Source: a virus. From it: 33,013 nucleotides of DNA. The translations under genes and the position numbers were made by a program. Positions 2,999 to 30,056 of the stretch are shown here, piece after piece. Location of the stretch: positions 1 through 33,013 of IMG/VR virus record IMGVR_UViG_3300009149_000154. One strand, given 5' to 3'. The notes beneath the pieces are model-generated. The model was not told the origin of the DNA and ran no database searches. It saw only the letters and a program-made list of their open reading frames with translations. The first letter of the stretch is position 1. The number at the start of each line of letters is the position of its first letter.

Positions 2999-3136
2999 CT
3001 AAAAACTCTCTAGGATCAACAGAGAGATGTTCTCTCTATTATGAAGGGAAACTAAACAACTACCTACTAGAGGATTGAAACTTGTCCATAAGATATCAGG
3101 AGAAAAGGTCATTAGAGCATTAGGCTTAGCTATCAT
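2999..3136 (-). CDS. Small ORF containing repeat element copy 1 (45 aa, uncertain gene)
   Basis: The frame starts at ATG 3136, directly after the TAA of the LysM-type gene, with a strong GGAGGGGAG Shine-Dalgarno upstream. It ends three bases before the hub start. An internal ATG lies at 3112. Most of the peptide comes from the repeat element, including FNPLVGSCLVSLHNREN. Context (ribosome site, tight spacing) favours translation, perhaps only to couple hub expression. Against a protein function, eight of the ten base differences between copies 1 and 2 change an amino acid. The product is not recognised. Confidence 0.4.
   Translation of the reverse strand: MIAKPNALMTFSPDILWTSFNPLVGSCLVSLHNRENISLLILESF
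3002..3113 (-). repeat. Repeat element copy 1 (112 bp)
   Basis: It matches copy 2 (20864-20975) without gaps over 112 bp, with 10 mismatches by hand count. Its part 3011-3080 aligns without gaps to copy 3 (29771-29840). The 35-bp core 3046-3080 is identical to copy 3. On the minus strand, 3021-3037 forms a perfect 7-bp hairpin, AGAGAGA-ACA-TCTCTCT. The element lies in the leader of the hub gene. Confidence 0.9.
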
Positions 3137-3448
3137 TTACTCCCCTCCTCCTAGAATGCGACTAAGCCGTCCAAAAGAAGGAATACGTAAAACTTTGAGA
3201 GCCTCCACAGGTTCTATCTGATTGATAGCATAAAGATTGTTCCATAGAGCTATTACCCACAAGAGCCGCACATCCCCATAGTACTTATAGGCTAATACAT
3301 CTAACCGATCTCCCAATTCAGTAACAATAATCTGGTCATCACTCTTCTGACTTGTGTCTGGATAATTGATATTTTGGAAGACTATGATACCAGATTCATC
3401 CAAAGTAGTAGGAGTATCAAAAAATCTTGTCCTAGACACATCAGCCAT
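3137..3448 (-). CDS. LysM/gpX-like tail protein
   Basis: This 103-aa protein resembles the small LysM-type tail proteins (P2 gpX, C-terminus of XkdP) found beside the hub gene. The core is GDRLDVLAYKYYGDVRLLWVIALWNNL, followed by EPVEALKVLRIPS, matching the LysM pattern of DTLxxIAxxxYG, LWxxIAxAN and xxLxPGxxLxIP. It is thought to bind or chaperone hub assembly. It starts at 3448 after a GAGGG motif and two bases past the upstream stop. It pairs with the CIS-tube protein upstream; in many phages the two are one fused protein. Confidence 0.78.
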   Translation of the reverse strand: MADVSRTRFFDTPTTLDESGIIVFQNINYPDTSQKSDDQIIVTELGDRLDVLAYKYYGDVRLLWVIALWNNLYAINQIEPVEALKVLRIPSFGRLSRILGGGE

Positions 3449-3450
3449 AT

Positions 3451-3951
3451 CTATGACCCTCTCACAGTCTTGTAATCCACTGACTCTGATCTATATTCTT
3501 CTAGTATGATTCTCACATCTGCTCTCAAGGGTTGCAAGGTTTTAGGGTCAAAGAGGTCTTTGGACAGAACCTCAACAGATTTGACCAAACATTCAACAGA
3601 CAAATAGTCCCCGTATTGAAACCGGATCCTGTGGGGGGCATGCTTCCTGGTAGTCTCTGAGTGTTCTGGATAGAGCAAACTTTGGAACCACAGAATCTTT
3701 TCATGAACTTCCTCCCGTCTATCATATTCCCCATACCAGAGGTTGATCAGGAGGGAGATAGTCCGTTTGCCTCCTGATACATATTGATACCTAGGATGAG
3801 ACATGCCTGGGATTGTAATCTCTGCATAGTTTGTGGATTTGGTATCTGAAATTTGCTCTGGGTTAATAGTAAATATGAGATTCTTGTTGTTAACTACATC
3901 AACAATCATCCCTCTGAGGGGAGCTGGAACTTCATTTGACAATCCAGCCAT
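3451..3951 (-). CDS. Contractile-injection-system tube-initiator/hub-adaptor protein (CIS_tube-like)
   Basis: This 166-aa protein has the hallmarks of the CIS_tube/XkdP N-terminal family: an early LIFTINPEQISDTKSTNY segment, an IPGMSHPRYQYVSGGKRTI segment and a LLINLWYGE strand. A later RIRFQYGDYLSVECLVKSVEV strand pair and a C-terminal ADVRIILEEYR complete the tube-like fold. Proteins of this family (Afp7 type) sit between hub and tube and are usually fused or adjacent to LysM, as here. It follows the tape measure gene by nine bases. Assignment rests on pattern recognition and on position. Confidence 0.72.
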   Translation of the reverse strand: MAGLSNEVPAPLRGMIVDVVNNKNLIFTINPEQISDTKSTNYAEITIPGMSHPRYQYVSGGKRTISLLINLWYGEYDRREEVHEKILWFQSLLYPEHSETTRKHAPHRIRFQYGDYLSVECLVKSVEVLSKDLFDPKTLQPLRADVRIILEEYRSESVDYKTVRGS

Positions 3952-3960
3952 TATATTTTC

Positions 3961-6900
3961 CTACCAATTGTTATGAGATCTATCCCTATCTTTGACCAGC
4001 TCTTCCACAATTGTTGCTGCTATCTCCCTTCTATCAAGATATACCTTAATATTGTTAATTACTGGAGCAGACTCTTGAGGAGGAACATGAACATGAATCT
4101 CTGGAGCTGCTTGAACTGTTGGTCTCTCAAGTAGTCCTCTCCAATCAATCCCCATCTCCTTGCCTGGTCCTCCGGTAGGCATTTCTTCTAGGTAGTCTTG
4201 CTCCAGAGACTCTTCAATTCCTGGAGAGGTCTCCCATTCCGGAAGGCCCATCATCCCAAATAGCTCCTCATCCCAATCCAGAGGACTCTCTATTGTCCTC
4301 CCAGGTCTAGGAGGCTTGGGAGGACCAAGAAGATTCTGGAGTCTGAAAAGGAGTATTGCCTCTGGTTTGTTGAAAACTTCTGGTATGGGAACCACTTCTG
4401 GCTTAATCTCAGTAAGACGTATAAGTTCAGAGACTCCTTGGAGGATCCCCCCTATCAAAACCTGATACCCTGATGGAACAAGGACATTATAGACAGCTTT
4501 TGCCAAAGCCTCTCGTGCTTCTTCTGGTAGGAAAGGCTCTAGAGGTTTTAATGGTTTTACATCCTTCTCCCTACGTGTCCAAGATAAAATCAATTTAGGA
4601 GGAAATTGAGGGGCCATAGGTTTGTATAATTTATCTCCCAAAGTATCCAGATATGCTTGGAGATCCCCTATCACAGCACCAACCCATTCCTTTTTCTCAG
4701 GGTGAATAGTTTGATACTTGTCTAGAATATCCAGCATCTTCATATAAGCCTCTGCTGGAGTCTCTGGAGTTGGGATAATGCCTTCTGGAACTACTGTTTC
4801 CCCCTCATGTCCTACAAGCATTCCTGTCTTTACAATTTCGGCTCCCTTTTGAGCCCTTGGTATTATTGCTGCAGAGGGCAATGGGGCAATCTCGGCTGGG
4901 GAAACAACCCCAGTAAGTCCAACTGCTGTAGGAACAGGTGCCTTTCCTCCCCAGAGCCAAGAGATTTTATCCCATAACCAATAGAACTTATTAGCAACCC
5001 ATTCAATAGGATCTTTTACAAGATTTTTCACTGTGCTCATTAGTTTTGTAAAGAGATTTGATATGTAGTCATAAGCATCTTTGAAGGGACTGGTCAACAA
5101 ATCCCATATAGATGACACAGAGTCTGAAATCACAGTTGGGAACCAGTCCCAGAGCTTTTCTGCCCCAAACTTGATAAGTTCCCAAGCTTTGTTGGCAAAA
5201 ATGGCTACAATCTCAAATGGTACCATAAGTATCTTCGCAAACTGTTCACTATTTGCATCCGACCCATTTACAAGCCAATCCCAACCTGCTTTGATCAGTT
5301 CCCATGTCCATTTAGCAACTGCATAAACTGCTCGGAAAGGTAGTGCAAGAGTGTTCCAAAGGAGATTACCAACAGGTTTCAAGGCATTCCAAAGCCAAAT
5401 AGCCCCGGCTTTGATCTTGTCCCAAGCCCATGATGCAGCCTCTACAAGCCCTGTCCATACATCACCAAAGAAATGAAAAGAGAAAATAGCCTTCAGACCT
5501 CCCCACACATCTGATGCTCTGTCAGCAATCCAACCAAAGAAGGCTCCGAACCATTTCTTTGCAAACTCCCAGTGTCTGATGAGAAGCAGAGGTATTGCTA
5601 AAAATGGTAGAAACACAGATAGGAGAACCACTGACACAGTTGACAAACTCTTTACAAAATTAACTATCTTGTCCTTGATCCCCATAAGTCCATCAATCAT
5701 CCAGTTCCATGCATCCTTGAAGGCCATTTTAACCATATCCCAGTGCTTGACCAGCATATAGATCTCCACCCCAAGACCAACAATTGCAAGAGCAACAAGA
5801 CCAATCCACCCAAGAGTAGCAAGGGATACTCCTCCTACAACAGATGAAAGGGTTCCCATTGCACCAGATACCCCTCCTATGGCAAACTTGGTCAAGCCAA
5901 TAGTAATTAGGACTGTTTTTACAAGTGCACTCACCATTAACATAGACCCGAATAATGCTACATAGACTCCTAAATACTTGCCTAATCGTCGAAACTTCTC
6001 TACATCGATTTCTTGAGTTTTTGCAGACACAAGACCAAGCTTAACTGCTAACCATTCAACTTTGTCAACAACCCACCCTACAGTTCTGTCCATCTGCCCA
6101 AAAACTTGGAAAACAAGCTCAAAGAAGCCTTTGAAACCTTCACCCACACCATATAAAAACATACCAACTCGGTAAAGTCCTCGTGCAATTCCCCTTGTAG
6201 TTTCATAGAGTCCCATACCTTTTAATGTCTTTTTCAGATTCTTAAATCTCAAAGCTGCCTCCCCCTCAAACTCAGCCAAAGAAGCCCTTACATGGGTAAT
6301 AAGCATCAAGACCATCTCAATAACAGGAGATATCTTCTTTCCCCATTCATCTACAATTGTCCTGATTCCTCCAAAGTTCCTATCCCAAGCCAATTTGAGC
6401 AAATATATTGCCCCCACAAGTAAGAAAATTGGCCCCAAGAATTTTAGAAGAGTTCCTCCCACCAAGGCAGCTGCTCCATTTGCTGCAAATAGACTAACAA
6501 CAAGTCCTTTGAGTTTCCAACTCCAGAGAGCTGTAACAGTTATGGCTAAACCAACAACTGTTATAAGGCTTAGAACTCCATAGACTGTATAGCCTAAGAC
6601 CTTTTGGAGAACAGGAAATTTTGTTATAAGTATTACAAGTGCTTGACTAACAGCTTCGAGAGGTTTGAGAAATAATTCCAGTATAACAATACCTTCCTTA
6701 CCAATCGCAACTCTAAATACCTGCAAAATTGCTTGAAGACGTTTCTTAAGATAAGCAAATGTGCCAGCCATTATCAAGAATGCCCGATTCATAGATCCAG
6801 CAGAATGCTTCATAACATACAGATCTTCACTAAGTTTCTTAAGCATACCTACCAGGATAAATCCACCAACACCAGCCCTGATATTTGGAACAATTGACCG

Positions 6901-7842: not shown

Positions 7843-7848
7843 TTTAGA

Positions 7849-8783: not shown

Positions 8784-8813
8784 TTCTCTTGTCTCCTTTT
8801 CCATCTTCATGTT

Positions 8814-8850: not shown

Positions 8851-8872
8851 AATACACCAGACTACTTAACTC

Positions 8873-9574
8873 TTAGAAGCTTACACCACCACTAATACCA
8901 CCACTAATACCACCACTAATACCACCTCCGATGTTGAAGCTGAACCCAGATCCACCCATTGTGAAGTACTGATAGGCCAAAGTCATCTTGTGAATGATAT
9001 TGGCACCTCCTTCACCACTAAGGTCGCCAAGAGCAGCACTCCGGATGAAACAACCGCACAAAGTGTACACCCTAACTGGATTCATATGGTTACCCAGAAC
9101 CATAATGTCAACATCTCGGAGGACAAAAGGAACTCTTCCTTGATAACCCCCTCCACCACCACCACCAAGCCCTGCTCCTGCACTGAAACCTGCTCCAGCA
9201 CTGAAGCTTGCTCCTGCACTAAATCCTCCTGCACTGAAGCTTGCTCCTGCACTAAAGCCTGCTCCAGCACTAAAGCCTGCTCCAGCACTAAACCCAGACC
9301 CAGACCCAATTTGGTGTATCTCGCTCAGCCACTGTTCAACTGGCTGCTCTGATCCATCTCCTAAGACTCCCTTCTCCAACTCAACATCTCTGAATCTGAT
9401 TCGGCCAGGAGCCTTTTGTGGACACAATGACCCAGCTGGGTTGAAAGTAACAACTTGGACCTCAAATTCAGGCAACGTGGCCTTTTGAAAGAGGGCTGCC
9501 TCAAATCCTTGAATTCTGACCAAGAATCTGTGAGTCTGCGCCAAATACTCCGGCTCAGTTCGCACAAGAGCCAA
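8873..9574 (-). CDS. Tail tube protein paralogue 2 with Gly/Ala/Ser/Phe repeat insertion
   Basis: This 233-aa protein is a close paralogue of the 156-aa tube protein just upstream. They share TEPEYLAQTHRF, GFEAALFQ, LPEFEVQ, QKAPGRI, GDGSEQPVE and LSGEGG-ANII. It differs by an insertion at residues about 90-144 built of FSAGAG, FSAGAS and FSAGG units ending in a run of glycines, placed in a surface loop between QWLSEIHQ and QGRVP. It also has a C-terminal GGISGGISGGISGG tail. The start is TTG 9574, chosen because AAGGAG lies six bases upstream and the next residues align with the paralogue. It may form a minority ring, the tube end or a decorated part of the tube. A terminator follows the gene. 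Confidence 0.85.
   Translation of the reverse strand: MALVRTEPEYLAQTHRFLVRIQGFEAALFQKATLPEFEVQVVTFNPAGSLCPQKAPGRIRFRDVELEKGVLGDGSEQPVEQWLSEIHQIGSGSGFSAGAGFSAGAGFSAGASFSAGGFSAGASFSAGAGFSAGAGLGGGGGGGYQGRVPFVLRDVDIMVLGNHMNPVRVYTLCGCFIRSAALGDLSGEGGANIIHKMTLAYQYFTMGGSGFSFNIGGGISGGISGGISGGVSF
8880..8927 (-). repeat. 12-bp tandem repeat encoding GGIS units
   Basis: The plus-strand unit ACCACCACTAAT occurs three times in perfect tandem, with a degenerate fourth copy. It encodes the Gly-Gly-Ile-Ser tail of the second tube protein. The length is a multiple of three, so copy-number change would keep the frame. Confidence 0.85.
9170..9292 (-). repeat. 18-bp-based tandem repeat encoding FSAGAG units
   Basis: Units of about 18 bp (plus strand GCTCCTGCACTGAAACCT and variants) repeat about seven times, with one 15-bp unit near 9222-9236. 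They encode the FSAGAG/FSAGAS insertion of the second tube protein. All units keep the frame, so slippage would only change loop length. Confidence 0.85.
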
Positions 9575-9589
9575 ATCTATCTCCTTCTG

Positions 9590-10060
9590 TTACTCTACCG
9601 AAAAGTACTGGTAAGCCAGTGTTACGCTGTTGATGATGTTCTCTCCTCCCTCACCACTCAATGCCCCAAGGGTCGCACTCTTCACAAAGCACCCATGCAG
9701 AGTGTAAGTCTTGACAACACCCATCAAATTGTTCAAGACCATGACATTGATGTCTTTCAAAACATCAGGTACTTTCCCTTGTGTCCCATTTGCTGCCTGA
9801 ATGATCTTCTCCAGCCAATCCTCAACTGGCTGCTCTGATCCATCACCCATAATGCCCTTCTCCAGCACAACATCACTATATGTGATTCGGCCAGGAGCCT
9901 TCTGAGCAAAGACCGATCCTCCTGGATTGAAGTTGACCTCTTGGACCTCAAATTCAGGCAAATTAGCTGTCTGGAAGAGAGCGGCCTCGAATCCATCAAC
10001 CTCTACACGAAATCGATGAGTCTGTGCCAAATACTCAGGCTCTGTTCGTGTATACGCCAT
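9590..10060 (-). CDS. Major tail tube protein
   Basis: This 156-aa protein follows the sheath gene and has the compact size of phage T4 gp19-like tube proteins (PF06841 type). It opens TEPEYLAQTHRFRVEVDGFEAAL in part, then LPEFEVQEVNFNPGG, a GRITYSDVVLEKGI strand pair and KTYTLHGCFVKSA, and ends TLAYQYFSVE. This resembles the family pattern in which an early x-F-x-V-x-IDG strand is followed by a x-V-T-L-K-RG strand. GGAGGAG lies seven bases before ATG 10060. It is probably the main subunit, since the neighbouring copy carries insertions. Confidence 0.88.
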   Translation of the reverse strand: MAYTRTEPEYLAQTHRFRVEVDGFEAALFQTANLPEFEVQEVNFNPGGSVFAQKAPGRITYSDVVLEKGIMGDGSEQPVEDWLEKIIQAANGTQGKVPDVLKDINVMVLNNLMGVVKTYTLHGCFVKSATLGALSGEGGENIINSVTLAYQYFSVE

Positions 10061-10077
10061 TGTTTTCTCCTCCAGTT

Positions 10078-11622: not shown

Positions 11623-11623
11623 C

Positions 11624-12076
11624 CTATACCACCTCCTCTGTTATTCGTATCTTGTTTTGTTTTGACAACCTAGTCATCTCTTGAGAGAGCTGGCTAGGTG
11701 GTATTCTTACTGAGTCCCTTCCATATAGATGGAGAGTCCCACCACCATTTTTGTGCAAAACCCAAGGTTGATTACACAAATTTCGGATAACTATGACCTT
11801 CTTAACCAATTTGGCTGCAGGGAGCCGAGTGGGTTTTGATGGAATAATTACCGCTTTTGGCGGAAGGGGTTTTACCACTTCTTTCTTTGGTGGAATAATC
11901 ACCACTTCCTTTGGAGATAGTTTTTCCTCATCCTTCTTTATCAGTGGAATCTCCATCTTCTTTGGAGAGAATACTTCCACATTCTTTGAGGAAGTGTCCT
12001 TGAGCTCTGGGGACTTAGGCAGAGGCTCCAACTGTTTCTTCCGCCTTACTACCAATGTTTCTTCCTCCCATACCAT
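11624..12076 (-). CDS. Pro/Lys-rich protein of unknown function, next to sheath
   Basis: This 150-aa protein has a low-complexity N-terminal half full of PPK, PKK and KEVV units, so it is probably extended and basic. The C-terminal 60 residues look folded: KKVIVIRNLCNQPWVLH, NGGGTLHLYGRDSVRIPPSQL and KIRITEE. It starts at ATG 12076 with GAGG eight bases upstream and overlaps the end of the glycosyltransferase gene by 62 bases in another frame. It ends just before the sheath start. The folded part resembles small beta-sandwich phage proteins, but I do not recognise the family. A role in neck or sheath assembly, or as a glycosyltransferase partner, is only a guess from position. Confidence 0.7.
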   Translation of the reverse strand: MVWEEETLVVRRKKQLEPLPKSPELKDTSSKNVEVFSPKKMEIPLIKKDEEKLSPKEVVIIPPKKEVVKPLPPKAVIIPSKPTRLPAAKLVKKVIVIRNLCNQPWVLHKNGGGTLHLYGRDSVRIPPSQLSQEMTRLSKQNKIRITEEVV

Positions 12077-13256
12077 AAGACTTAACCTCTTTGAACCAAT
12101 GTTCTTTTACATCGTCAGAAGACGCATCTATACCCAACATTGCAACTGCATGAGCAAACACTGCTGCCGGTTTGATCTCTGACAAGCAGGGAGTAGCTCT
12201 TAGAGGCAACTGATTCTTGATGGCAAGTTCTTTGGCTTTCCGACAAGGATCATGTCCATGTTGGAAACAAGGCATATAAGGACAAAAATCCCTATTTGGC
12301 TCCATAGCCATACATTTGGGATACGACCTTACTCTGGCCATTGCAGGGAATGGACCATAGAATGCCAACGATGGAATACCTAATGCAGCCGCAAAGTGAA
12401 CAAATGCTGAATCTGGACAGATCAACAAATCACTACGTTGGATCAATGCTATTGTAGTCTTTATATCAATTAACCCACAGAGATTGTGGATTTTCCTAAA
12501 ATGTTTCATATCAATGGAACAATCTCCCTGTTTACCCACCAACAAGACCCTAACATTTGGGAAAGCAGAGAGGCTGACAGCCACATTCAAAGTGTAATCC
12601 AGAGGATATGTTCTCACAAGACTAGATGCTCTAACCTGAATTACTATTGTCTGGACTCCATTTATCTCCATCCGATCTTTCCTGGCCAAGTGCTGGATAA
12701 CCCGGCAAGCCTTCTTGTTATTGTCTTCAGATACCTTGTACATAGGAATCATTTCGGATTCTTCCAGAGGCACTCCAGACAGTTCCGCAAATACCTCTAT
12801 ACCAGTCTTCTCTGGGTCTTGAGACCTCTCGATTGTTCCCTCAAAATGGAGATGAAAATCATGTTCATCTAACTCATCCTCAGACAATGGAACATGATAT
12901 ATCTTGTCTATGTATCCTTGTTGCTTAAATGCTAGACCAAAAAATGGGGAACAAGCCAAGTCTATTTTAGCAGTTGGATATATCCTCTTGATTTTATCCA
13001 TGATAGGAGACAACATCAAGATGTCCCCAAACCCCCCAGTTCGCATAAACAAAAGGCTCTTATCAGAGAGGTCTGTTCCAATTCCAGGGTATTGCCGGTA
13101 GGAATCCCATTTTTTCACCTCAAATTGGAACCCTGGATTCCTTGCCTTTGCCCGCATGCAATCTATGTCTATAGAGTCACTAAAGAGGTAGAAAATGTCC
13201 GGTCTAAGCTTGCTACCCTTGCGGGGATCACTGTCTGGGAACCGTGCTAATTTCAT
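12015..13256 (-). CDS. Glycosyltransferase family 9 (heptosyltransferase-like)
   Basis: This 413-aa protein has the two-Rossmann GT-B layout of the ADP-heptose:LPS heptosyltransferase family. Residues 74-100 hold GGFGDILMLSPIMDKIKRIY, equal to the GDxxxxxPxxxxLKxxxP motif of WaaC/WaaF. Residues about 259-302 hold the donor-site signature LIQRSDLLICPDSAFVHFAA followed by ALGIPSLAFYGPF, matching the family's ADLxIxxDSGPxHLAAALGxPxxALFGP. A Cys/His-rich stretch follows (DFCPYMPCFQHGHDPC). The start at 13256 has GGAG seven bases upstream. It sits between connector and sheath genes, unusual for an LPS-type enzyme. With the heptose kinase gene at 22483-23547 it suggests sugar transfer to a virion protein, to DNA or to host LPS. 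The acceptor cannot be read from sequence. Confidence 0.85.
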   Translation of the reverse strand: MKLARFPDSDPRKGSKLRPDIFYLFSDSIDIDCMRAKARNPGFQFEVKKWDSYRQYPGIGTDLSDKSLLFMRTGGFGDILMLSPIMDKIKRIYPTAKIDLACSPFFGLAFKQQGYIDKIYHVPLSEDELDEHDFHLHFEGTIERSQDPEKTGIEVFAELSGVPLEESEMIPMYKVSEDNNKKACRVIQHLARKDRMEINGVQTIVIQVRASSLVRTYPLDYTLNVAVSLSAFPNVRVLLVGKQGDCSIDMKHFRKIHNLCGLIDIKTTIALIQRSDLLICPDSAFVHFAAALGIPSLAFYGPFPAMARVRSYPKCMAMEPNRDFCPYMPCFQHGHDPCRKAKELAIKNQLPLRATPCLSEIKPAAVFAHAVAMLGIDASSDDVKEHWFKEVKSYGMGGRNIGSKAEETVGASA

Positions 13257-19630: not shown

Positions 19631-19631
19631 T

Positions 19632-19742
19632 TTACCTACGTTTCTCCATTAGTTCAGAGGCTACTATTGCATCATACACTAATAGATACTCAGAATGGTA
19701 GAACTCTTGAAGGAAAATTGTATGGGTAGGATTAGAAGAGGA
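19632..19742 (-). other. In-frame extension after amber stop of head protein gene
   Basis: Directly after the TAG that ends the Mu F-like gene, the same frame stays open for 36 codons and closes with TAA one base before the protease start. The peptide looks protein-like (IFLQEFYHSEYLLVYDAIVA, then ELMEKRR). No ATG begins it; GTG (19679) and ATG (19649) are internal and lack clear ribosome sites. It may be read by stop-codon readthrough, be a remnant of a longer C-terminus, or be a gene with a rare start. No other gene here suggests TAG recoding. Confidence 0.4.
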
Positions 19743-20840: not shown

Positions 20841-20854
20841 TCTACTCCCTCAAC

Positions 20855-20974
20855 CTATCTTCTAAAACTCTCTAGGATCAACGGAGAGGAGTTTTCTCTA
20901 TTATGGAGGGAAACTAAACAACTACCAAATAGAGAATTGAAACTCCTCCATAAGATATCAGGAGAAAAGGTCAT
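20855..20974 (-). CDS. Small ORF containing repeat element copy 2 (39 aa, uncertain gene)
   Basis: ATG 20974 lies one base after the portal stop, and the last portal codons AGG AGG form its ribosome site. It ends 14 bases before the Mu F-like gene. The peptide, including FNSLFGSCLVSLHNREN, is wholly made by the repeat element. Translation is plausible from context. The excess of amino-acid-changing differences from copy 1 (8 of 10) argues against a conserved protein function. Confidence 0.4.
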   Translation of the reverse strand: MTFSPDILWRSFNSLFGSCLVSLHNRENSSPLILESFRR

Positions 20975-20975
20975 T
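20864..20975 (-). repeat. Repeat element copy 2 (112 bp)
   Basis: It matches copy 1 (3002-3113) over 112 bp with 10 mismatches and no gaps. The invariant 19-mer GGGAAACTAAACAACTACC (plus strand) is shared by all three copies. The perfect hairpin of copy 1 is weaker here. It lies in the leader of the Mu F-like gene. Confidence 0.9.
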
Positions 20976-22496
20976 CTACCTCCTATTCTCCTCCATCTCG
21001 TCAAAGATCACCCGATCTCTCAATACTACAACACCTTGGAGCAAGGCGTCCATTATGCTTTCTCTCGATTTTCCCACATTGAAAACTTTTGGAAAGCTTT
21101 CAATAGTCTCCTCAGTAGAAATTCCATAGTAGTATTTTCTGGCCTCTTCGACAGACATAATCCCGGAAGCAACAACTACAGACGCGGCCTGACTTTTGAG
21201 TTGTTCTATCTGAGCTAGGGTCTTTTCGTCTTCATGGCTGCCAGGTATGAGTTCAAGATAATAAGTTGTAAAGCCCATTGCCTCAAAAAGTGGTTCCAAG
21301 GCTGTTATAAACATGCGTTGAAGGGGCCTTATTGTCTTCAAATTGAAATTAAGGCTCTGCTGTTGACTATTGGCCTTGATCGCCTGCTCCCATATTCCTG
21401 CCTCAGAAGGGGGAACTCTCATAACAGCACAAGTCTCTTCTCGTGTCTGCTTGCGATAGAGAATAAATGACCCTTCTTTCATCTCTACAGCAACTGGCTC
21501 AAAATGAGCCTCCATATCCCCTGGCAAAGGAAGGATCAGTGTCCTGTGAGCCTGTCCTTGAAGTTTCTCTTCAAAGAACTTACGTATAATCTTCTTAACT
21601 TCCTCTGTAACCTTACCACCAGATATTGTCACAATATACTGAGGAACAGCATTGTTCTCAAAGAATTGAAGGTTGAACTTGGCTGCTGCAAAGTCTCCCA
21701 TCATCGAATACCAAGCAGAAAGGATTGGAGGTATACCATAGAAATCATCAAGAGGTGAATAAGCCTTGAAATGAATCAAAGAACTCACAAAGTCATCCCC
21801 AGGTTCAGGAGGCTTATTGTAAACAGTTTCCCCTCCAGCATTCACATAGTTTATTGGATAAGGAAATGCCCGAAAATACCTCCTTTTGTTAGAATCCGCA
21901 GAGGATCTCTGAACATACTTCTCTCTCTTCTTCCCTACCCGTATTCTTGGAGAAGGAACATGATATACACCATCATAGCCCTTAGGTGACTCTGTAATCT
22001 CAAGAAAGGCATTCCCTGTCGTCTCAAAGTCCATAAGGGCTTGTTTGAGCTCCGGGATCAGAGGGGTGTTTCCTACCCCTCTGCCAGAGATAAAGTCATC
22101 AAAACGTTTCTTTTCTTTTGGATTTTCAGACATCCCCTCTCGTTTCTTGAGAAGATAGCCCAAATCAAAGGTGTTTGTGACTTTAGCATCTATACAACTT
22201 CTCACCCATGGATTTCTCAGAATAGAAAGAGCTAAGTCTTCCATTGGAAACGGGGGAGTTACAAACTCAGAATAGTCCATAGATGTGAATCCATCTGGCA
22301 AAAGAGCTTTACTCTTGCTCTTCTGCATTTTTGCCCTCTTTTCAAGATCTACTGGGAATGGTCCCGCTCGATCTGGATTATCTTGAACTTCTAAGTCACC
22401 AGACTTCTTAAGATCATCTAAACTCCTCAATCTCCCTGTTTCTGTAAGGAGAAAAGCCTCACTTAGAACAGGAGTATCTTCATTATTTGCCATCAT
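20976..22496 (-). CDS. Portal protein (PBSX/HK97 family)
   Basis: The 506-aa protein is the dodecameric DNA gateway. Typical segments: LALSILRNPWVRSCIDAKV, GNAFLEITESPKGYDGVYHV, SSLIHFKAYSPLDDFYGIPP followed by ILSAWYSMMGDFAAAKFNLQFF, and ENNAVPQYIVTISGGKVTEE, then MRVPPSEAGIWEQ. The order P-S-P-x-R (sugar-like strand), H-F-x-x-x-S-P-x-x-x-x-Y-G-I-P and F-F-x-N-x-A-x-P is characteristic of PBSX-type portals. The gene overlaps the heptose kinase gene by 14 bases; GAGG lies about six bases before ATG 22496, and a second ATG follows at once. It ends in AGGAGG TAG, which also serves as the ribosome site of the next small frame. Confidence 0.93.
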   Translation of the reverse strand: MMANNEDTPVLSEAFLLTETGRLRSLDDLKKSGDLEVQDNPDRAGPFPVDLEKRAKMQKSKSKALLPDGFTSMDYSEFVTPPFPMEDLALSILRNPWVRSCIDAKVTNTFDLGYLLKKREGMSENPKEKKRFDDFISGRGVGNTPLIPELKQALMDFETTGNAFLEITESPKGYDGVYHVPSPRIRVGKKREKYVQRSSADSNKRRYFRAFPYPINYVNAGGETVYNKPPEPGDDFVSSLIHFKAYSPLDDFYGIPPILSAWYSMMGDFAAAKFNLQFFENNAVPQYIVTISGGKVTEEVKKIIRKFFEEKLQGQAHRTLILPLPGDMEAHFEPVAVEMKEGSFILYRKQTREETCAVMRVPPSEAGIWEQAIKANSQQQSLNFNLKTIRPLQRMFITALEPLFEAMGFTTYYLELIPGSHEDEKTLAQIEQLKSQAASVVVASGIMSVEEARKYYYGISTEETIESFPKVFNVGKSRESIMDALLQGVVVLRDRVIFDEMEENRR

Positions 22497-23547
22497 CTTT
22501 GTCCTCTATTGCTATTTCTGACTGCTCGTCTGTTGTATCTGTATGTTCCTCGTCCTGCTCTACATCATCAAACATCTCTTCTTGGATTTCTCTTTGTAAC
22601 ATTTCCATATCTGGGGCACAAGCTCCTACCTTACTTACAACTTGAGATGCTGCCAAATTTGCTATCTTTGCCATCTTCTGGTCAGAATACCCCAAAGCTT
22701 CAGTAATACTTGCTGCTACTATCACAGCATCTCCAGCACCAGTGACATCCCAAACTGGATACCTTGCTTCCACAGGTTCCCAGTAAGATTTGCCTTCTCC
22801 TATAACATAGATACCCTTTTTACCACAAGTAACCAGGATAGTTCCGATCCCCAAATCCTTCCTATATTGGGACAAATGATCAAAGAGGACATTGTCTGAA
22901 GACTCAATGGGATCTATTCCCATCCCCATACAAGCCTCGTAATGATTTGGGGTTAGAAGGTCAACTCCTTGATAGTGTTCATACCACTTGTGCTTAGGAT
23001 CCACGGAGACAATTGTGTCTTGTTCTTTATCCTGAGAAAGAATGCCTTTGATAAGGTCTGGAGAAACCACTCCTTTCCCATAATCTTCAATTATCACAAT
23101 GTCTGGAGACATCTTCATCATAGAAGAGACATAAGCTACCAACCTAGAGGAGAGGTCGGCTCCTATCCAATCGGTTTGTTCCTCATCGATCCGGAGGAGC
23201 TGTCCTCGTTCCACCATAATCCGTGTTTTGACTGTGGTCCACCGTCCTGGAACAAAGAACAAGCCCTGAGTATGAATACCTTGAGCAGACAAGAGATTTT
23301 GGAGTATCCAACCTGCCTTGTCAACTCCTACTATACCAGCAACATGAACATCTGCACCAAAGGCTCTAGCAACAACAGCAACATTAGCTGCTCCTCCTGG
23401 TCTGTAACGAATGCTTTTGGCCTTAAATATGGGGACAGGTGCCTCCTGTGAGAGCCTTGTTGAAATCCCGTCCGAATATCTATCTAACATCACATCTCCA
23501 ACGACCAAGATTTTCAGATTCTTAGCTCTCTCTAAGAAATTCAGCAT
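22483..23547 (-). CDS. hldE-like: PfkB-family kinase, HldE/RfaE kinase-domain-like
   Basis: The 354-aa protein (start ATG 23547, GAGGAG seven bases upstream) matches the kinase domain of HldE, which makes heptose-1,7-bisphosphate from D-glycero-beta-D-manno-heptose-7-phosphate. Evidence: GDVMLDRYSDG (17-27), RLSQEAPVPIF (31-41), YRPGGAANVAVVARAFGADV (48-67), TTVKTRIMVERGQLLRIDEE (104-123), YGKG, DPKHKWYEHYQGVDLLTPNH and the catalytic WDVTGAGD (266-273). The C-terminal nucleotidyltransferase domain of bifunctional HldE is absent; an acidic tail of about 35 residues replaces it. It lies between terminase and portal, an unusual place. Other PfkB sugar substrates remain possible, but the RxSQEAPVP signature favours heptose-7-phosphate. 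Confidence 0.88.
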   Translation of the reverse strand: MLNFLERAKNLKILVVGDVMLDRYSDGISTRLSQEAPVPIFKAKSIRYRPGGAANVAVVARAFGADVHVAGIVGVDKAGWILQNLLSAQGIHTQGLFFVPGRWTTVKTRIMVERGQLLRIDEEQTDWIGADLSSRLVAYVSSMMKMSPDIVIIEDYGKGVVSPDLIKGILSQDKEQDTIVSVDPKHKWYEHYQGVDLLTPNHYEACMGMGIDPIESSDNVLFDHLSQYRKDLGIGTILVTCGKKGIYVIGEGKSYWEPVEARYPVWDVTGAGDAVIVAASITEALGYSDQKMAKIANLAASQVVSKVGACAPDMEMLQREIQEEMFDDVEQDEEHTDTTDEQSEIAIEDKDDGK

Positions 23548-23575
23548 GTCTTGTCTCCTCAATCCTCTTCCACTT

Positions 23576-25270
23576 TCATGTATATGCCTCTTCCATCACA
23601 TTTGACCTGTACCTATCAAAAACGTAGCATGCAAGGGCGGCACCAAAAACTCTGTCATCAAATCCTCCCACACTCGCCATAGGAGTTCCTTGATCATTAT
23701 ACTGAAATATGGTCATCTCGTTTACAAGAGGCCGAGATCGAATAGTAATTGCTTGTTCATCCTCCACAAGTCTCTTTAGAGCAGCTAGGATCAGAGGCCG
23801 CGTCTCTACATTCGTAGGAAGTCCGGGCCGCCTCGTCTTCCTCTTAGTTCTTCGTTCTCTGCTCACATGGAAATAGACATTGGGGTATAAAAGATGATGA
23901 AGCAGATTGTCAATAACCACGTGTCCATGATTGTTACGCTCAGGAACTATTAAGGCATCATTATAGTATTCAGCCGCTATCTTGAGAATCTTGGCATATA
24001 TGTGTGGAGCCAAAAAGCAATGAATCTCCCCAGCCTGAATCCCGGTCGTAGCATCCAGAATAAAAGCTGCTGATGGATGTCCCTCAGACAAACCCTCTGC
24101 AACATCACTCCCAATGATATAATCATGGCCAGGTATGGGCTCCCCATAGATGAGGATCACATTTTCCATACGTCGAATAGGATCACGAGTCTTGGGCAGA
24201 ACCTTGAACTGAACATGACTCAAATCAAAGTATGGCCTACTTGTGGTCAAGAAGCAATCTTTAGGATCTTCTGGATATTCTTGGCAAAAAGCCTCCTCTG
24301 CTGTTGATGCTCTAGCCCCAGACACAACTTCTGAGGATTTCATTGAGGCAATCTTCCATCTCCGCCATGCTATCTGGTCCAAAGACAATTTGTGAACATC
24401 TACAAGAGTCTTCTCATGGGTTGAAAGATTATTCCAAGTAGGGATCATAGAATCTCTCATCCTGATTGTCCCAAGACCAAGATGTCCCCGAGCTTGGGCT
24501 ATATCTATCTTGTAATTGGGATCCATCCACCAAGGATAAAATTGGAGAGAGTAAACTCCTCTGTCCCCTAGACAATCCATACAAAAGTCGTAGAACCAAC
24601 CTGATGCGCCATTAGGTGTTGACTCAATCATGACCCACCCATTCTGGGGAACAGCTTCAATCAGAGCCTTGAACAAATCAGCCTGGTGGGGAATGAATGC
24701 TGCTTCTGTAATGTGAAGATTGTTGATCGTGTAGGATCGGCCCAAAGAACTTGAACCATATCTCTGAGTCCCTATTGCTCTTTGACCTTTTTGACCAGAA
24801 AACACAACATATTTAGAACCAGTATGGGCAAAACGTATCTCATGCCTGTTAGCTATTTCCAGTGGAAGCTTTACCTCTGTGCGTAGATTGTCATAGTATC
24901 TGGATATAATCTCAAAAAAGTTTACAACTGTCCCATCGTCTTGAGCAACAGAAACAGTCGTTACCTCTGAGGCACAATAGGTTCTCAAGAAAGTAGCTGC
25001 CGTAATGATTGTAGAAAAGCCTCCCTGACGATACTTAAGCAGACCGTCCCGACCAGCAAGACTCCTCAGCAATTCCTTCTGGACTTCATAGAGAGTAAGA
25101 GGAACAATCTTAGGGCGTTTATCCCGGATAATCAGATTACTCTCAATAGCCTGAATCAGAAGGTTTGCTCGCTCGGTAGGATTACTTGTCTCAGGATAGA
25201 CAGAGTTGACAAGTTTCTCATACTCATCAACTTTGAATGTTGATTTTACTTTCTTGACTCTGTTCATCAT
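23576..25270 (-). CDS. Terminase large subunit
   Basis: This 564-aa protein is the DNA-packaging motor. It has an ATPase domain with KYRQGGFST (79-87, Walker A of the terminase type), LHITEAAF (185-192, Walker B with catalytic Glu) and the coupling motif IESTPNG (215-221). The RNase H-like nuclease has IIGSDVAEG (D389), VPERNNHG (E444) and GGFDDRVFGAALA (D538/D539), so the three acidic positions are present. The start at 25270 is one of two adjacent ATGs, with an AAGG-like motif upstream. No clear small subunit is visible; the 95-aa gene just upstream is the only candidate by position. It is preceded by the hypermodification cassette. Confidence 0.95.
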   Translation of the reverse strand: MMNRVKKVKSTFKVDEYEKLVNSVYPETSNPTERANLLIQAIESNLIIRDKRPKIVPLTLYEVQKELLRSLAGRDGLLKYRQGGFSTIITAATFLRTYCASEVTTVSVAQDDGTVVNFFEIISRYYDNLRTEVKLPLEIANRHEIRFAHTGSKYVVFSGQKGQRAIGTQRYGSSSLGRSYTINNLHITEAAFIPHQADLFKALIEAVPQNGWVMIESTPNGASGWFYDFCMDCLGDRGVYSLQFYPWWMDPNYKIDIAQARGHLGLGTIRMRDSMIPTWNNLSTHEKTLVDVHKLSLDQIAWRRWKIASMKSSEVVSGARASTAEEAFCQEYPEDPKDCFLTTSRPYFDLSHVQFKVLPKTRDPIRRMENVILIYGEPIPGHDYIIGSDVAEGLSEGHPSAAFILDATTGIQAGEIHCFLAPHIYAKILKIAAEYYNDALIVPERNNHGHVVIDNLLHHLLYPNVYFHVSRERRTKRKTRRPGLPTNVETRPLILAALKRLVEDEQAITIRSRPLVNEMTIFQYNDQGTPMASVGGFDDRVFGAALACYVFDRYRSNVMEEAYT

Positions 25271-25294
25271 GTCATAGAATAGATACCTTTGGGG

Positions 25295-25582
25295 TCAATG
25301 CACCAATTCTGGAAGAAGGACATCTTCTTCAGACAACATCTTTTCTATATCTTCTGTTCTAACTGCCATACAACCCCCACTAGTGACTATTGCTGCTCCT
25401 GGTCCTGCCGTCAAAAGGTATTGCCACAGATGCCTTCGTCGATCCTCTGTCCAACTTGCTAGCTGTACAGGAACGAGACCAAAATCCTCCCACATACTTG
25501 CCAGATTACAACCTCCCTGGTTTATAACAGCATTCATCATGTCAGTATACCTTTCTTGGGCTGTAGAATTGATAGTCTTCAT
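25295..25582 (-). CDS. Small protein upstream of terminase, unknown function
   Basis: The 95-aa protein is acidic at its end and has a helical pattern (TAQERYTDMMNAVINQGG, RRRHLWQYLLTAGPG). It ends 24 bases before the terminase start and begins 16 bases after the zinc-ribbon gene. By position it could be the terminase small subunit, but it is short and shows no evident helix-turn-helix, so I leave the function open. Confidence 0.65.
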   Translation of the reverse strand: MKTINSTAQERYTDMMNAVINQGGCNLASMWEDFGLVPVQLASWTEDRRRHLWQYLLTAGPGAAIVTSGGCMAVRTEDIEKMLSEEDVLLPELVH

Positions 25583-25598
25583 CTATTCTAGTCCTATC

Positions 25599-25778
25599 TT
25601 AAGAATGTCCCAACTCTGAAACCTGTTCCTCCAACTTTGAGATTATATCATCTCTGGTTGCCACTTGTGCCTCAAGCTCAGCTATCTGATCTTGAAGAGT
25701 CTCTTCACAAGCTCCACAACAGATCTTCTCTCCGTCTCCTATTGGGTTATGGCAACTATCACATACAATCTTGATCAT
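25599..25778 (-). CDS. Small zinc-ribbon/coiled-coil protein (59 aa)
   Basis: The start codon overlaps the stop of the upstream gene (ATGA), implying coupled translation. Four cysteine-type ligands open the protein: C6-x2-C9 and C20/C21-x-C24, giving a CDSC...CCGAC zinc ribbon. A heptad-like coiled coil follows (LQDQIAELEAQVATRDDI and ISKLEEQVSEL). It is probably an oligomeric metal-binding adaptor. The partner is unknown; its tight linkage to the 220-aa gene suggests that they act together. Confidence 0.75.
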   Translation of the reverse strand: MIKIVCDSCHNPIGDGEKICCGACEETLQDQIAELEAQVATRDDIISKLEEQVSELGHS

Positions 25779-26437
25779 CTTTCATTCTCCTTTTCTTGTT
25801 GCATTTTTATCAAAACACTCTGCTGATAATGTTCTTTGGAAATAACTCCTGCAAGGAACAGCCTACCATCTTGAACCAATGGATCTAAGAGCTTAGAAAC
25901 CCAATCCACAGGGTCAAGGCCCATCGGAACAGATGAATCTACTAAAAGAAGGGAATTTGGAACCTTCCTCAGCAGTCGGCTCATAAATCTCTCCCAAGAA
26001 ATACTACTTGAGAAAACAGTCTGAACATTAATCTTAGCCAATTCATCTTCATACAATTTAAGCCGTTGTGGAGCATCTATAAGACGTTCTTTCAAGAAGC
26101 CCATATTGGGAACTGTACGTAGAGGATTCTGAGACCCATCATAGATGTCATCTATCAGAGATTGGAGCATTGCTTTTCTCTCATTGGCTTCCAACCAAGA
26201 TTTTTCATATTTCATCCCGGCTGAAATACTCCGTCCCATTGCTATCTTCACCATCAATTTCCACTTCCAATCCTTCTTCTGATTTCCCTCCTTCTCAGAC
26301 CGGACACTAATACCCACACTGAGTTGGTCAGTATAAGAAGGCACCTGATCAATGAACACACAGGCAAAGGGTCGATGTCCTCCACCCTTGATCCCAGTAA
26401 GAATATCATGAACCTTAGGATATGAATTAGTTGGCAT
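25775..26437 (-). CDS. Unknown 220-aa protein in putative DNA-modification cassette
   Basis: It overlaps the P-loop kinase gene by 11 bases and has GGAGGACAGG before ATG 26437. The N-terminal part is beta-rich (RPFACVFIDQVPSYTDQLSV, then GISVRSEKEG), the middle is a long basic helix (KKDWKWKLMVKIAMGR, EKSWLEANERKAML), and the C-terminal half has a Rossmann-like strand-turn SLLLVDSSVPMGLDP and GRLFLAGVISKEHYQ. I recognise no family or catalytic motif. Operon position suggests that it works with the kinase and TS-like protein, perhaps as a subunit or carrier step. Confidence 0.7.
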   Translation of the reverse strand: MPTNSYPKVHDILTGIKGGGHRPFACVFIDQVPSYTDQLSVGISVRSEKEGNQKKDWKWKLMVKIAMGRSISAGMKYEKSWLEANERKAMLQSLIDDIYDGSQNPLRTVPNMGFLKERLIDAPQRLKLYEDELAKINVQTVFSSSISWERFMSRLLRKVPNSLLLVDSSVPMGLDPVDWVSKLLDPLVQDGRLFLAGVISKEHYQQSVLIKMQQEKENER

Positions 26438-27155
26438 ATACCTGTCCTCCTCTTAAATCATGTGTTCCAAACTGGCCCTCGAACCAGTCTGCTACATCTT
26501 CCACACTCAAACGAGTAGTGTCCAATTCCAGCACTCTAATTCCTCTCTTCACAGATTTGTGGGCATTCACTTCAGCTGCATGCCTCTTGTTCTCCATGTT
26601 TCCTACAACAATTGGGGTAGTTGGCCTACCTGTTCTATTATGAATACGCTCCAAACAGACCTTTGGGCTAGCATAGAGATGAACTACAGTAACTTCCCTC
26701 TCAAGGCCTGAAAACACCTTAGACCTAACATCAATCCAATCCAAATGCCCCAGTAAACACCCTCCCATTAGAGCACCTTCCACAATCAAAGGTAATGGAA
26801 ATGGCCATAATATGTGAAGAACATATCTCACATCTTCCGTTGTAGCTAAAGTGTCTGCTCCTCCACAAACTCTGACATACTTTCCTACAATTGTAAATCT
26901 GTCTGGAACTACCAAGCCTAAAAGCCTTCTATGATCTCTCACATAGCAGATTGGCAAAGAGGTTTTGGCCTGTTCTGCTCTGTGTATCAATTCATACATT
27001 GCTGCTGTTTTACCTGATCCACTGGTTCCAATAACTATGATCAGAGGCAAAGGTTCTAAAGGGGGAGGAGTCTGCCTTTTGACAAATGCCAAAATCTTCT
27101 CCACATACCCCAAAGGTCTATCTATGTCCTTCAATCCCTTGATTGTGTTAGCCAT
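26427..27155 (-). CDS. P-loop kinase, 5-hydroxymethyl-dU DNA kinase-like
   Basis: The 242-aa protein has a Walker A motif GTSGSGKT (43-50), GKYVRVCGGADT (91-102), PLIVEGALMGG (122-132, a Walker B/lid region) and LYASPKVCLERIHNRTGRP, a nucleotide-kinase lid with Arg. The GKYxxxCGGxDT motif is the one I associate with the P-loop kinases that phosphorylate 5-hydroxymethyluracil in phage DNA before hypermodification, as in SPO1/M6-type systems. This link rests on my memory of the motif, not on a search. It lies downstream of the TS-like gene and overlaps the next gene, making an operon. An alternative is a generic nucleotide kinase of unknown substrate. Confidence 0.72.
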   Translation of the reverse strand: MANTIKGLKDIDRPLGYVEKILAFVKRQTPPPLEPLPLIIVIGTSGSGKTAAMYELIHRAEQAKTSLPICYVRDHRRLLGLVVPDRFTIVGKYVRVCGGADTLATTEDVRYVLHILWPFPLPLIVEGALMGGCLLGHLDWIDVRSKVFSGLEREVTVVHLYASPKVCLERIHNRTGRPTTPIVVGNMENKRHAAEVNAHKSVKRGIRVLELDTTRLSVEDVADWFEGQFGTHDLRGGQVYAN

Positions 27156-27168
27156 TGTTTATGCTTTC

Positions 27169-28482
27169 CTACTCCTTTGAAAACTCACTCATGGTTAAGA
27201 CCTCTGGACGAATAGGTATCAATTTCAGTGCCCCTGGCTTGTCCTTTACCCTCTTCAGATAGGCTACCAGAACTAAGTCCCTTACCTCTTGAGGCAACAC
27301 CTCGAGGACCTCGGCTGCCTCTTTGGGCCTATTGGTTCTCAAAAACCAATTCAATAAGAACCCTGCTGCTTGAGGCTGAAAGTATCCCACAATATCTCTC
27401 AGGGCCTTCAAATGAGGCTCAGATTTTTTACCCAGGTAGGCTCTAGATGTTTTTAGATTGGGATTGGAATACTCCTTTTCAGACTCCAGAATCTTCTCTG
27501 CATAGCACAACTCTGCAATCTTCATCACATTCACCCAATCAGCAAAATACTGGGTTTGAAGTTGACCTATCTTCTCATCTGCTTCTTCAAAAGCAGCCAA
27601 ACGGAGGTCTTGCTCAATACGTTCCTTGAGATCCCACTCTTCTCTAAAATCAAACAATTTCAAGGTCTTGGTATCTGGCTTCACAGAAGGGTATAGATCA
27701 GTTATGGGAGAATGTTCCTTCCAAAATTTGTAACGTGCCTCCCATTGAGCACGATCATGCCTGTAGAATATCTGGCGCAAAATGATAAAATAATACTCAG
27801 CCTTGCCTACCTGCTTCTTGAGATGGCCACCTAGCCAAGAACCCAACTCACAAGGCCGAAACATGTCTGTAATCCAATGTTGGTAGAACACATTGTGCCG
27901 CCAAAATGTCCGCACCTTGCCCAAACGACTTCCAAAGTTGTAATTCCAAACAAGGCCACAGGTAACTCTCTGGTGCTCTCTGTCAGAATAGGTTCCCATG
28001 TGCCAACGCCGCTTAGTATACTCCACCAAATCCTTCTTCCAGCGAAAGAGCATAATGCTAGCTTTGTCGGAACCAGGATCATGCTGAAGAAGATTGAGGA
28101 CATGGTGAAGTTGGCCCTCAGCATCTACTGCCCCAGTAATCTGAGGTTCTACAATTCCACTATCAAATACTTCCATTGGGTGGGGCTTGCCTGTGCAATC
28201 TTTGAATGCCCAGTCAATTACTCCACTTGCCTTGAAGTATCTAGCCCGTCTACTGTCATACCTCAAGTGTAGGCCACCAGGAGCAAGAGAACCTTCAACC
28301 AAATCACTTGTCTCTCTTAATATCCAAGCAAGATCATCAGATAAGTGTGGAAGGGGAACAACATAATTCTGGTGAGCATCTTTGATTGTTACAGCCACAT
28401 CTTCTCTGGAGCCATTTTCTAACAGTAGTCCCAAGAGTTGGACATAGGCGTCAAAGCCATTATCTGCTTCTAGGTGGATCAT
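27169..28482 (-). CDS. Thymidylate-synthase-like protein with long C-terminal extension
   Basis: The N-terminal 230 residues show the TS/dUMP- or dCMP-hydroxymethylase pattern, strongly diverged. L-N-LLQHDPGSDKASIM-x-FRWKKDL (129-152) equals the TS segment LKNDPDSRRxxxxxWNxxDL. VTCGLVWNYNF (173-183) offers C175 as the nucleophile. TFWRHNVFYQHW (192-203) fits the Q-R-S-x-D phosphate-binding segment, and CELGSWLGGHL the following helix. Typical TS proteins are near 264-316 aa; this one has 437 aa. Its last 200 residues are helical and charged, with TPR-like hairpins (KRIEQDLRLAAFEEADEKIG region). It may make 5-hydroxymethyl-dUMP or act on DNA bases directly. It starts at ATG 28482 with GGAGGAGAG upstream. 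Confidence 0.6.
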   Translation of the reverse strand: MIHLEADNGFDAYVQLLGLLLENGSREDVAVTIKDAHQNYVVPLPHLSDDLAWILRETSDLVEGSLAPGGLHLRYDSRRARYFKASGVIDWAFKDCTGKPHPMEVFDSGIVEPQITGAVDAEGQLHHVLNLLQHDPGSDKASIMLFRWKKDLVEYTKRRWHMGTYSDREHQRVTCGLVWNYNFGSRLGKVRTFWRHNVFYQHWITDMFRPCELGSWLGGHLKKQVGKAEYYFIILRQIFYRHDRAQWEARYKFWKEHSPITDLYPSVKPDTKTLKLFDFREEWDLKERIEQDLRLAAFEEADEKIGQLQTQYFADWVNVMKIAELCYAEKILESEKEYSNPNLKTSRAYLGKKSEPHLKALRDIVGYFQPQAAGFLLNWFLRTNRPKEAAEVLEVLPQEVRDLVLVAYLKRVKDKPGALKLIPIRPEVLTMSEFSKE

Positions 28483-28489
28483 TTGGTTT

Positions 28490-29740
28490 CTACTCTCCTC
28501 CTACATTCAAATGCAATTTCCTAATGTCTGGATACCTTAGTGCCTTGGCCTCCAACAGAGTATCATTGTGACAAGCTTGGGTGCCTTTTTCTTTACAATA
28601 CAAACAAGCTCCATAGCAACCTGGGAAAGGTTTGAAAGTATCCTCCAAATTCTCCCTGTAAAATACTGGGATAGCTCTTCCGTGGCACTGGTCTGCTGTA
28701 GTGTACTCAGGAAGCATACTATTTCCAGCTTTGCAAGGACCCTGAGTTGTATATTCATAGCATAGAGACATTGTGATCCCAAGATCTTTGGTTAGCCCCA
28801 TCATTCTATCAAAGAATTTCCTCCTAATTGCCTCTGATACAGTAAGAACCCCTCCAATTCTCTGAGTATACACCCTCTTGAACAGATCCACTCTTTCTTT
28901 TGGAAATCTCTTCCCCAATTTCTCTATAAACCATTTAGCATTGTCAGCAGTCAAACTCTCACAGAACTTGAAGATGATGTGCTGTAAACCTCTCTTAGAA
29001 GCATCTATAGCTACCTGAGCTACTTCATCCCAATTACTTATTCCAGGTATAATGGGATTACACTGGATAGATGTGTATACTCCCATCTTGCTAAGTGTGT
29101 GTATCTCCCTCATTAGGTCTTTATAGGAAGCCCCTCTGGGACACATAATTCTTATATCCTTTGGATCAGAGGTATTGATGGAAAATTGGGCATAACTGTA
29201 CTTATTGTGAGTCAATATAGACTTTGCCCAATCTGGCATTATCTGCCTTGTACAAAAGAGAATGGGCAACTCCACCTTGTCAAATACTTTTGCCAATCTC
29301 TCTGTTACATGGTATGTGGGTTCAAGTGCATGAAATGGTTCTGTGAAGGAAGAGATATATGCTGGAAAGGCCACATGCAATTTAGACAGCATTTTTTCAA
29401 CCTTCTCAGGGTAGGCTGGGTCAACAGTTGGAAGCCCTGTCCTCCTGTAACCTCTTGTTCCCCACTGAACATAACAAAATACACAATTGCCAGGACAAAA
29501 TCCTCCGTAAGGCTTAGTCAGCAAATGCTCTGTGTAACACGGTCTTGGTCTTTTGTTGGGAGAACTCTCATGTTTGCTTTTATACCATCCTTGAAGCACT
29601 GCTCCTTGATCTAACACTAAGTGAGGGAAAGGATCAAGAGTTACTGTGAATGCTTTGTCTTTGCCTCCTCTCAACATAGACAAGTTCCTAATCTCTGTTC
29701 TAGCCTGTGGGACACCTATTTTTGGCATTGTCTCTTTCAT
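28490..29740 (-). CDS. Radical SAM enzyme, spore-photoproduct-lyase-like (COG1533 type)
   Basis: The start is set at ATG 29740, with AGGAGG eleven bases upstream, giving 416 aa; the frame continues in-phase to 29869 through the repeat element. The [4Fe-4S] motif is GFCPGNCVFCYVQWG (C82-x3-C86-x2-C89), close to SplB-type enzymes. Then follow SSFTEPFHALEPTY, FCTRQIMPDW, FSINTSDPKDIRIMCPRGAS, and SIQCNPIIPG strands of the partial TIM barrel. A second Cys group near 374-393 (CYGACLYCKEKGTQAC) could bind an auxiliary cluster. It heads the putative hypermodification cassette, ahead of the TS-like and kinase genes. Repair of thymine lesions is the other possibility. Confidence 0.85.
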   Translation of the reverse strand: MKETMPKIGVPQARTEIRNLSMLRGGKDKAFTVTLDPFPHLVLDQGAVLQGWYKSKHESSPNKRPRPCYTEHLLTKPYGGFCPGNCVFCYVQWGTRGYRRTGLPTVDPAYPEKVEKMLSKLHVAFPAYISSFTEPFHALEPTYHVTERLAKVFDKVELPILFCTRQIMPDWAKSILTHNKYSYAQFSINTSDPKDIRIMCPRGASYKDLMREIHTLSKMGVYTSIQCNPIIPGISNWDEVAQVAIDASKRGLQHIIFKFCESLTADNAKWFIEKLGKRFPKERVDLFKRVYTQRIGGVLTVSEAIRRKFFDRMMGLTKDLGITMSLCYEYTTQGPCKAGNSMLPEYTTADQCHGRAIPVFYRENLEDTFKPFPGCYGACLYCKEKGTQACHNDTLLEAKALRYPDIRKLHLNVGGE

Positions 29741-29770
29741 ACTGTTGTCTGCCTCCTGTCTAATACTATA

Positions 29771-29840
29771 TAGGATCAACGAGGTCATGTTTTCTCTATC
29801 TCTTTGGGAAACTAAACAACTACCTACTAGAGGATTGAAA
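29771..29840 (-). repeat. Repeat element copy 3 (70 bp, partial)
   Basis: It aligns without gaps to 3011-3080. The 35-bp part 29806-29840 is identical to copy 1; the left flank is about two-thirds identical. The core supplies the last codons and stop of the 78-aa gene. On the minus strand, the same frame as in copies 1 and 2 is open and joins the radical SAM frame. Confidence 0.88.
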
Positions 29841-30056
29841 TCTAACAGGCCGTATTCCCAGAAAATCATCTACTCGTTTATCATCCATACGCTGAAGAAT
29901 CTGAGGTGTAAGACGAGCATCCATTTCTCGCATAACCCTACGAATAAGTGTATCTCCCTTCTTGGTTGACTTACTATGATCGACTAAATCCAAATGCTGA
30001 CCACACAACGTTCGAATTTCCTCGTCTGATAATCGTCCCATTGTTCCTACTGCCAT
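29820..30056 (-). CDS. Small helical protein, unknown function; C-terminus inside repeat element
   Basis: The 78-aa protein (MAVGTMGRLSDEEIRTL start) uses ATG 30056 with AGGAGG eight bases upstream. It is mainly helical and charged (LIRRVMREMDARLTPQILQR). The last seven residues, RFQSSSR-like, and the stop codon are encoded by the 35-bp repeat core, so the element seems to have replaced the natural end of the gene. No family recognised. Confidence 0.62.
   Translation of the reverse strand: MAVGTMGRLSDEEIRTLCGQHLDLVDHSKSTKKGDTLIRRVMREMDARLTPQILQRMDDKRVDDFLGIRPVRFQSSSR

Follow-up and report, generated by a model that had tools for sequence, protein, structure and literature searches.

Results

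Copies of the repeat in the window

The window, a stretch of viral DNA of 33,013 nucleotides (IMG/VR record IMGVR_UViG_3300009149_000154), raises the question of what a sequence that recurs in one orientation just ahead of genes is doing in a phage genome, and where it came from. The first-pass annotation had reported three same-orientation copies sharing an invariant 19-mer, and both statements hold. A search of the window with the first copy (c1) hits exactly three places, 3002-3113, 20864-20975 and 29762-29840, all on the minus strand, with identities to c1 of 91% for the second (c2) and 81% over 79 bp for the third (c3), and both the 19-mer GGTAGTTGTTTAGTTTCCC and the 35-bp core pattern occur three times, with none expected from shuffles. 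The core of c1 (TTTCAATCCTCTAGTAGGTAGTTGTTTAGTTTCCC, 3046-3080, minus strand) has 35 identical bases in common with that of c3 (29806-29840, minus strand), and the core of c2 (20908-20942, minus strand) differs at a few of the 35.

In its full extent c1 covers 2999-3134 (minus strand), including a 21-bp left extension (3114-3134) that is common to a copy, g1, on a second contig, G1; the extended match pairs window 3002-3134 with G1 27619-27487 at 85.7% identity. Copy c2 occupies 20861-20975 (minus strand), with weaker similarity to a primase gene continuing to 20989. Copy c3 (29759-29840, minus strand) lacks the left arm and begins exactly at the core; it had previously been placed at 29771-29840, a correct call whose boundary really reaches about 29759-29762.

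All three copies are sense to the window genes and lie 50-67 nt before minus-strand start codons. The neighbouring genes, all on the minus strand, were named from PHROG matches: a baseplate hub/tail protein gene (1754-2995), with its ATG at 2995, 3 nt past the right end of c1; a Mu F-like minor head protein gene downstream of c2 (19743-20840, start at 20840); a portal gene (20976-22496), with a stop codon that abuts the left end of c2; and a radical SAM/photolyase-like gene downstream of c3 (28490-29740, start at 29740). A small minus-strand ORF (29820-30056) takes its final codons (FQSSSR-stop) from the c3 core. When c1 is excised by eye, a Shine-Dalgarno sequence (AGGAGGGGAGTAAAT/CCAATG) comes to precede the hub ATG at a normal spacing.

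Other genes of the window include one for a PfkB-type sugar kinase, placed between the terminase and portal genes (22483-23562), and, among the tail genes, one for a glycosyltransferase of family 9 (12015-13256), a pair for which DNA or virion glycosylation is a possible role.

A second contig and the phage genome

Beyond the window, the exact 19-mer matched only contig L004, which is the same phage (99.99% identity to window 19637-33013), and a scan with a 16-mer added one contig, L011/G1 (IMGVR_UViG_3300009149_003930, 36,061 bp). The other contigs among L007-L031 have only the bare 16-mer in common and were set aside as chance matches. G1 carries two close copies, with 83-85% identity, and one diverged copy. 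Copy g1 (G1 27508-27619) lies across a gene boundary, overlapping a small gene at its end and the following gene in its start region, and g2 (G1 33717-33818) is intergenic and lacks the right tail; both are antisense to their neighbours. As for the earlier proposal to look for the core elsewhere, the element is present on a second contig, outside the window and outside gene leaders. The accompanying description of the copies as lying before minus-strand gene starts is right for the hub, Mu F-like and radical SAM genes, but it does not extend beyond the window.

L004 passes the right end of the window, runs through a 17-bp tandem repeat and enters sequence matching G1, its tail being 98% identical to the reversed right end of G1 over 890 bp. 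GC content is 43% in both the window and G1. The window encodes packaging, head and tail functions, and G1 encodes a DNA polymerase, primase, recombinase, helicase, ligase, thymidylate synthase, exonucleases and a gp32-like protein. Judging by this overlap and gene content, G1 carries the replication half of this phage or of one very close to it, and we infer that it forms, together with the window as structural half, one myovirus-like phage of at least about 69 kb, roughly 70 kb. Since the contigs come from different samples and are joined by this single 890-bp overlap, the one-phage claim holds at the level of a population. On this view a single uncultured phage of bacteria harbours at least five close copies of the repeat, together with one diverged relative, as one family.

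In each half the genes are transcribed outward from the junction, the coding strand switching there. On the joined map six of six copies nevertheless point one way, in the direction of transcription of the window genes, so that they are sense to genes in the window and antisense on G1 (sign test, p about 0.03, for n=6 copies only).

The contig end itself (window 32891-33013) consists of a 17-bp tandem repeat, TGCGTGTCCTTTATGAG. Past the window end, L004 enters GC-rich repeats (CCGAAACGGAGTTTC) that are found on G1 as well, and GC skew flips here, which is why the junction region may be an origin or control region. At the opposite end, window 5-218 matches, at 73% identity, a section of a NUMOD3-HNH homing endonuclease gene of G1 (L034 1286-1840). 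G1 has an exact 50-nt direct repeat with 225-bp spacing (1821-1870 and 2046-2095), beginning in the homing-endonuclease stretch.

Relatives sought by DNA and by the portal, radical SAM and sheath proteins led back to the same phage only, and no exact match to the 19-mer occurs in 84,980 prokaryote species genomes. The repeat is best read as a lineage-specific dispersed DNA element.

Homology to the primase gene

Searching G1 with a profile of the five close copies (nhmmer) revealed the sixth, diverged copy at G1 19426-19564 (E 2e-5, 19.0 bits; the best score in 60 shuffled genomes was 13.4). It lies within a DnaG-type primase gene (G1 18854-19780), in the coding stretch between the zinc finger and the catalytic core, and encodes the linker RINEGPIPNSLRGTNHPPYPGAKSTHKITGENGILPP. 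Read on the plus strand, c2 is open without interruption and gives a primase-like linker, RINGEEFSLLWRETKQLPNRELKLLHKISGEKVILPP, in which 16 of 37 residues (43%) are identical to the primase linker (E 5e-6); the same frame contains stops in c1, g1 and g2. The homology to the phage's own primase linker is collinear, as in a fragment of that gene.

Linkers of similar length are found in thirty-odd related primases, which makes the primase a likelier source than target of the repeat and disfavours insertion of the element into the primase, where the linker has the normal length for the family. No element was found in 80 loci with related primases. The sequence comparisons suggest that a fragment of the primase gene is probably the source of the repeat, which would make the direction of derivation one from primase to repeats.

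Conservation within the repeat

Conservation is uneven along the repeat. A core of 33 bp is the same in four of the five copies and the right arm drifts: the four full copies have 59 invariant columns out of 65 in left arm plus core, compared with 18 out of 44 for the right arm (Fisher p 2.5e-8). The constant part comprises a centre of about 34 bp, together with a 32-bp left arm in four copies, and to this centre, where constraint within the family is greatest, the primase copy is a poor match. Copies c1 and g1 are identical over 70 bases and then fall to about 61% identity.

The pattern does not resemble that of a translated leader peptide. Variable sites in the four full copies number 8, 12 and 10 at codon positions 1, 2 and 3, with no bias and no concentration at the third position. 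The first-pass annotation had noted that 8 of 10 changes between c1 and c2 alter residues, which a comparison of 112 bp by eye confirms (2 are silent), and had argued from this that selection does not seem to act on a peptide. We reach the same view, given the lack of codon-position bias and of any credible relative of the repeat peptide in either reading. A search of viral contigs and genomes with the primase-frame peptide led to this phage alone.

Discussion

Our preferred reading, held tentatively and at rather less than even probability, is that the repeat is a cis-acting DNA site, most likely for transcription control, acting in the late direction. A function at the level of DNA is what we infer from the conservation pattern; transcription control is a guess, placed ahead of other roles because all copies point in the late direction, the antisense pair on G1 included. 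In such a scheme a piece of the primase gene of about 38 codons, covering the linker between zinc finger and core, would have been copied elsewhere in the phage genome; the copied pieces would have lost their coding function and then spread to gene boundaries, and the conserved centre would have been kept as a cis-acting DNA site, neither transposon nor leader peptide. The site might serve phage transcription as a late promoter or as a site for a regulator or antiterminator. Like the late promoters of T4-like phages, the copies are repeated non-coding sites before late genes in the late direction, but the repeat is far longer and has no conserved -10/-35. Across the copies there is no conserved promoter signature: some right arms contain sigma-70-like -10 hexamers, but their position shifts by 3 nt and c3 has none, and a scan for the promoter consensus gave a single 9/12 match, in c2. 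A bolder version, in which polar cis-acting sites made from non-catalytic primase sequence stand at module boundaries in both halves, serving late transcription and, through the copies in the early half, the antisense silencing of early genes, strikes us as improbable.

The strongest competitor, which we hold possible although clearly less probable than a cis-acting site, is a non-autonomous or selfish element, either MITE-like or moved by the recombination or homing machinery of the phage, whose fragments were copied into gene boundaries and homogenized by gene conversion, the phage gaining nothing from them. The copies do sit at gene junctions, c1 and c3 look inserted, and extents vary, c3 lacking the left arm and g2 the right tail; the 70 bp of identity between c1 and g1 suggests recent copying, and the same phage encodes a NUMOD3-HNH homing endonuclease. 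However, conservation is highest in the centre and lowest at the ends, the parts that a transposase would require, and it is because the constraint falls on the centre that we prefer a cis-acting site, or conversion tracts, to a transposon; patchy gene conversion could yield an invariant centre without any function. The aligned copies show neither terminal inverted repeats nor the conserved termini of a MITE, and no transposase is encoded among the genes scanned, some small ORFs lying outside the scan. Checked by eye for target-site duplications, c2 has TAGAA and c3 TTAGA at both ends, overlapping element sequence, and c1, g1 and g2 have none that is clear. MITEs and short prokaryote repeats such as the Rickettsia palindromic elements likewise measure about 110-135 bp, are dispersed at gene boundaries and may have a relative within a coding gene, yet the phage repeat differs from MITEs in its central conservation, its single orientation and its want of terminal inverted repeats, and apparently derives from the primase instead of having been inserted into it.

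The uniform orientation across the genome would also suit a polar site for replication or recombination, for instance in single-strand priming or in recombination at module boundaries, with single-strand pairing of the arms perhaps of importance; this we regard as unlikely. The copies border functional gene blocks (packaging, head-tail, baseplate), c2 folds strongly (z -3.3), and one helix between the arms has three pairs changed on both sides and is 88.9% paired, compared with at most 66.7% when slid. Nevertheless, c1 and c3 fold no better than shuffles, and the covariation measures, drawn from five sequences only, were equalled by shuffles in 15 to 44 of 500 trials. The flip of GC skew at the junction counts against this reading as well: were replication to start at the junction, the copies would not share a single replichore strand. 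In lambdoid phages, module boundary (linker) sequences are similarly short direct repeats between gene blocks and, like the phage repeat, could promote module exchange, but the phage repeat recurs as one sequence inside a single genome, and no exchange-partner relatives are known. Helix support, weak as it is, and the sense placement of three of three window copies before start codons would also fit a leader RNA or RNA operator of the hub, Mu F and radical SAM genes, as first proposed. That proposal is weakened by g1 and g2, for every copy of a leader RNA should be sense to the gene that it regulates and these two are antisense to their genes, g1 overlapping a gene end; an Rfam search returned no family at threshold, and we now think the leader RNA improbable. 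Rfam matches to animal or snoRNA families had E near 1 and were discarded as chance; a tRNA-like T-loop (TTCAATC) was considered, and ARAGORN finds no tRNA.

Finally, a solitary CRISPR-repeat mimic of the Racr type, titrating host Cas proteins, appears very improbable, although the core is CRISPR-like to some degree. Its plus strand ends in GGATTGAAAC, as do many CRISPR repeats, early transcripts would read g1 and g2 in the crRNA sense, and the two top Rfam matches of the isolated core are CRISPR-DR10 and DR9. The likeness first noticed at the core end is real, the last 14 nt (TAGAGGATTGAAAC) being the end of a Thermus type I-B repeat, but the case for mimicry is weak: over its whole length that repeat, the best published match found, agrees with the core at 20 of 36 bases, and the Rfam scores (16.7 bits for DR10 and 15.9 for DR9) are below half of the cut-offs of 39 and 45. 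The published screen for Racr candidates (PMC10651486) used the SRUFinder rule, which asks for 90% identity or more to a known CRISPR repeat across 90% or more of its length; among the published repeats compared with the core, none at 90% identity was found. The phage repeat is like Racr and other solitary repeat units (Camara-Wilpert et al. 2023, PMC10651486) in being of CRISPR-repeat length, intergenic, phage-encoded and ending in ATTGAAAC, and unlike them in its five close copies, long conserved flank and primase ancestry. Conservation running 32 bp past the core, homology of the family to the primase gene and the absence of the 19-mer from the prokaryote genomes searched likewise speak against mimicry.

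If a cis-acting site is the right reading, a family of regulatory or recombination sites would have arisen from a fragment of a coding gene in a small phage genome, where each base is costly; if the repeat is merely selfish DNA, it would be an unusual case of phage gene-fragment repeats all the same. Repeats taken for gene leaders can also follow the orientation of the genome and not that of the genes.

Other repeated sequences in the genome

On its gene-sense strand the replication half carries 16-17 occurrences of a leader motif, GAGTAGGTTTAT, of which the structural half has none. The motif is often in tandem and often shortly ahead of start codons (examples on the minus strand of G1, L034/L035, are at 35100, 34513, 33700-33672, 26852, 26517, 19808 and 1153), and is a candidate early-gene signal. 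The idea that the repeat core contains the early motif (AGTAGGTTTA) was dropped because the core on G1 has it in the opposite orientation. Within the window, a direct repeat of 188 bp with 77% identity (9326-9513 and 9812-9999) is where tail-tube-like genes seem to be duplicated. A perfect 30-nt inverted repeat (AGAAGATTCTGGAGTCTGAAAAGGAGTATT), of a length not expected even once by chance, sits between the tape-measure gene and the ORF at 27169-28482, at window 4328-4357 and 27468-27497, and its second site is confirmed in L004.
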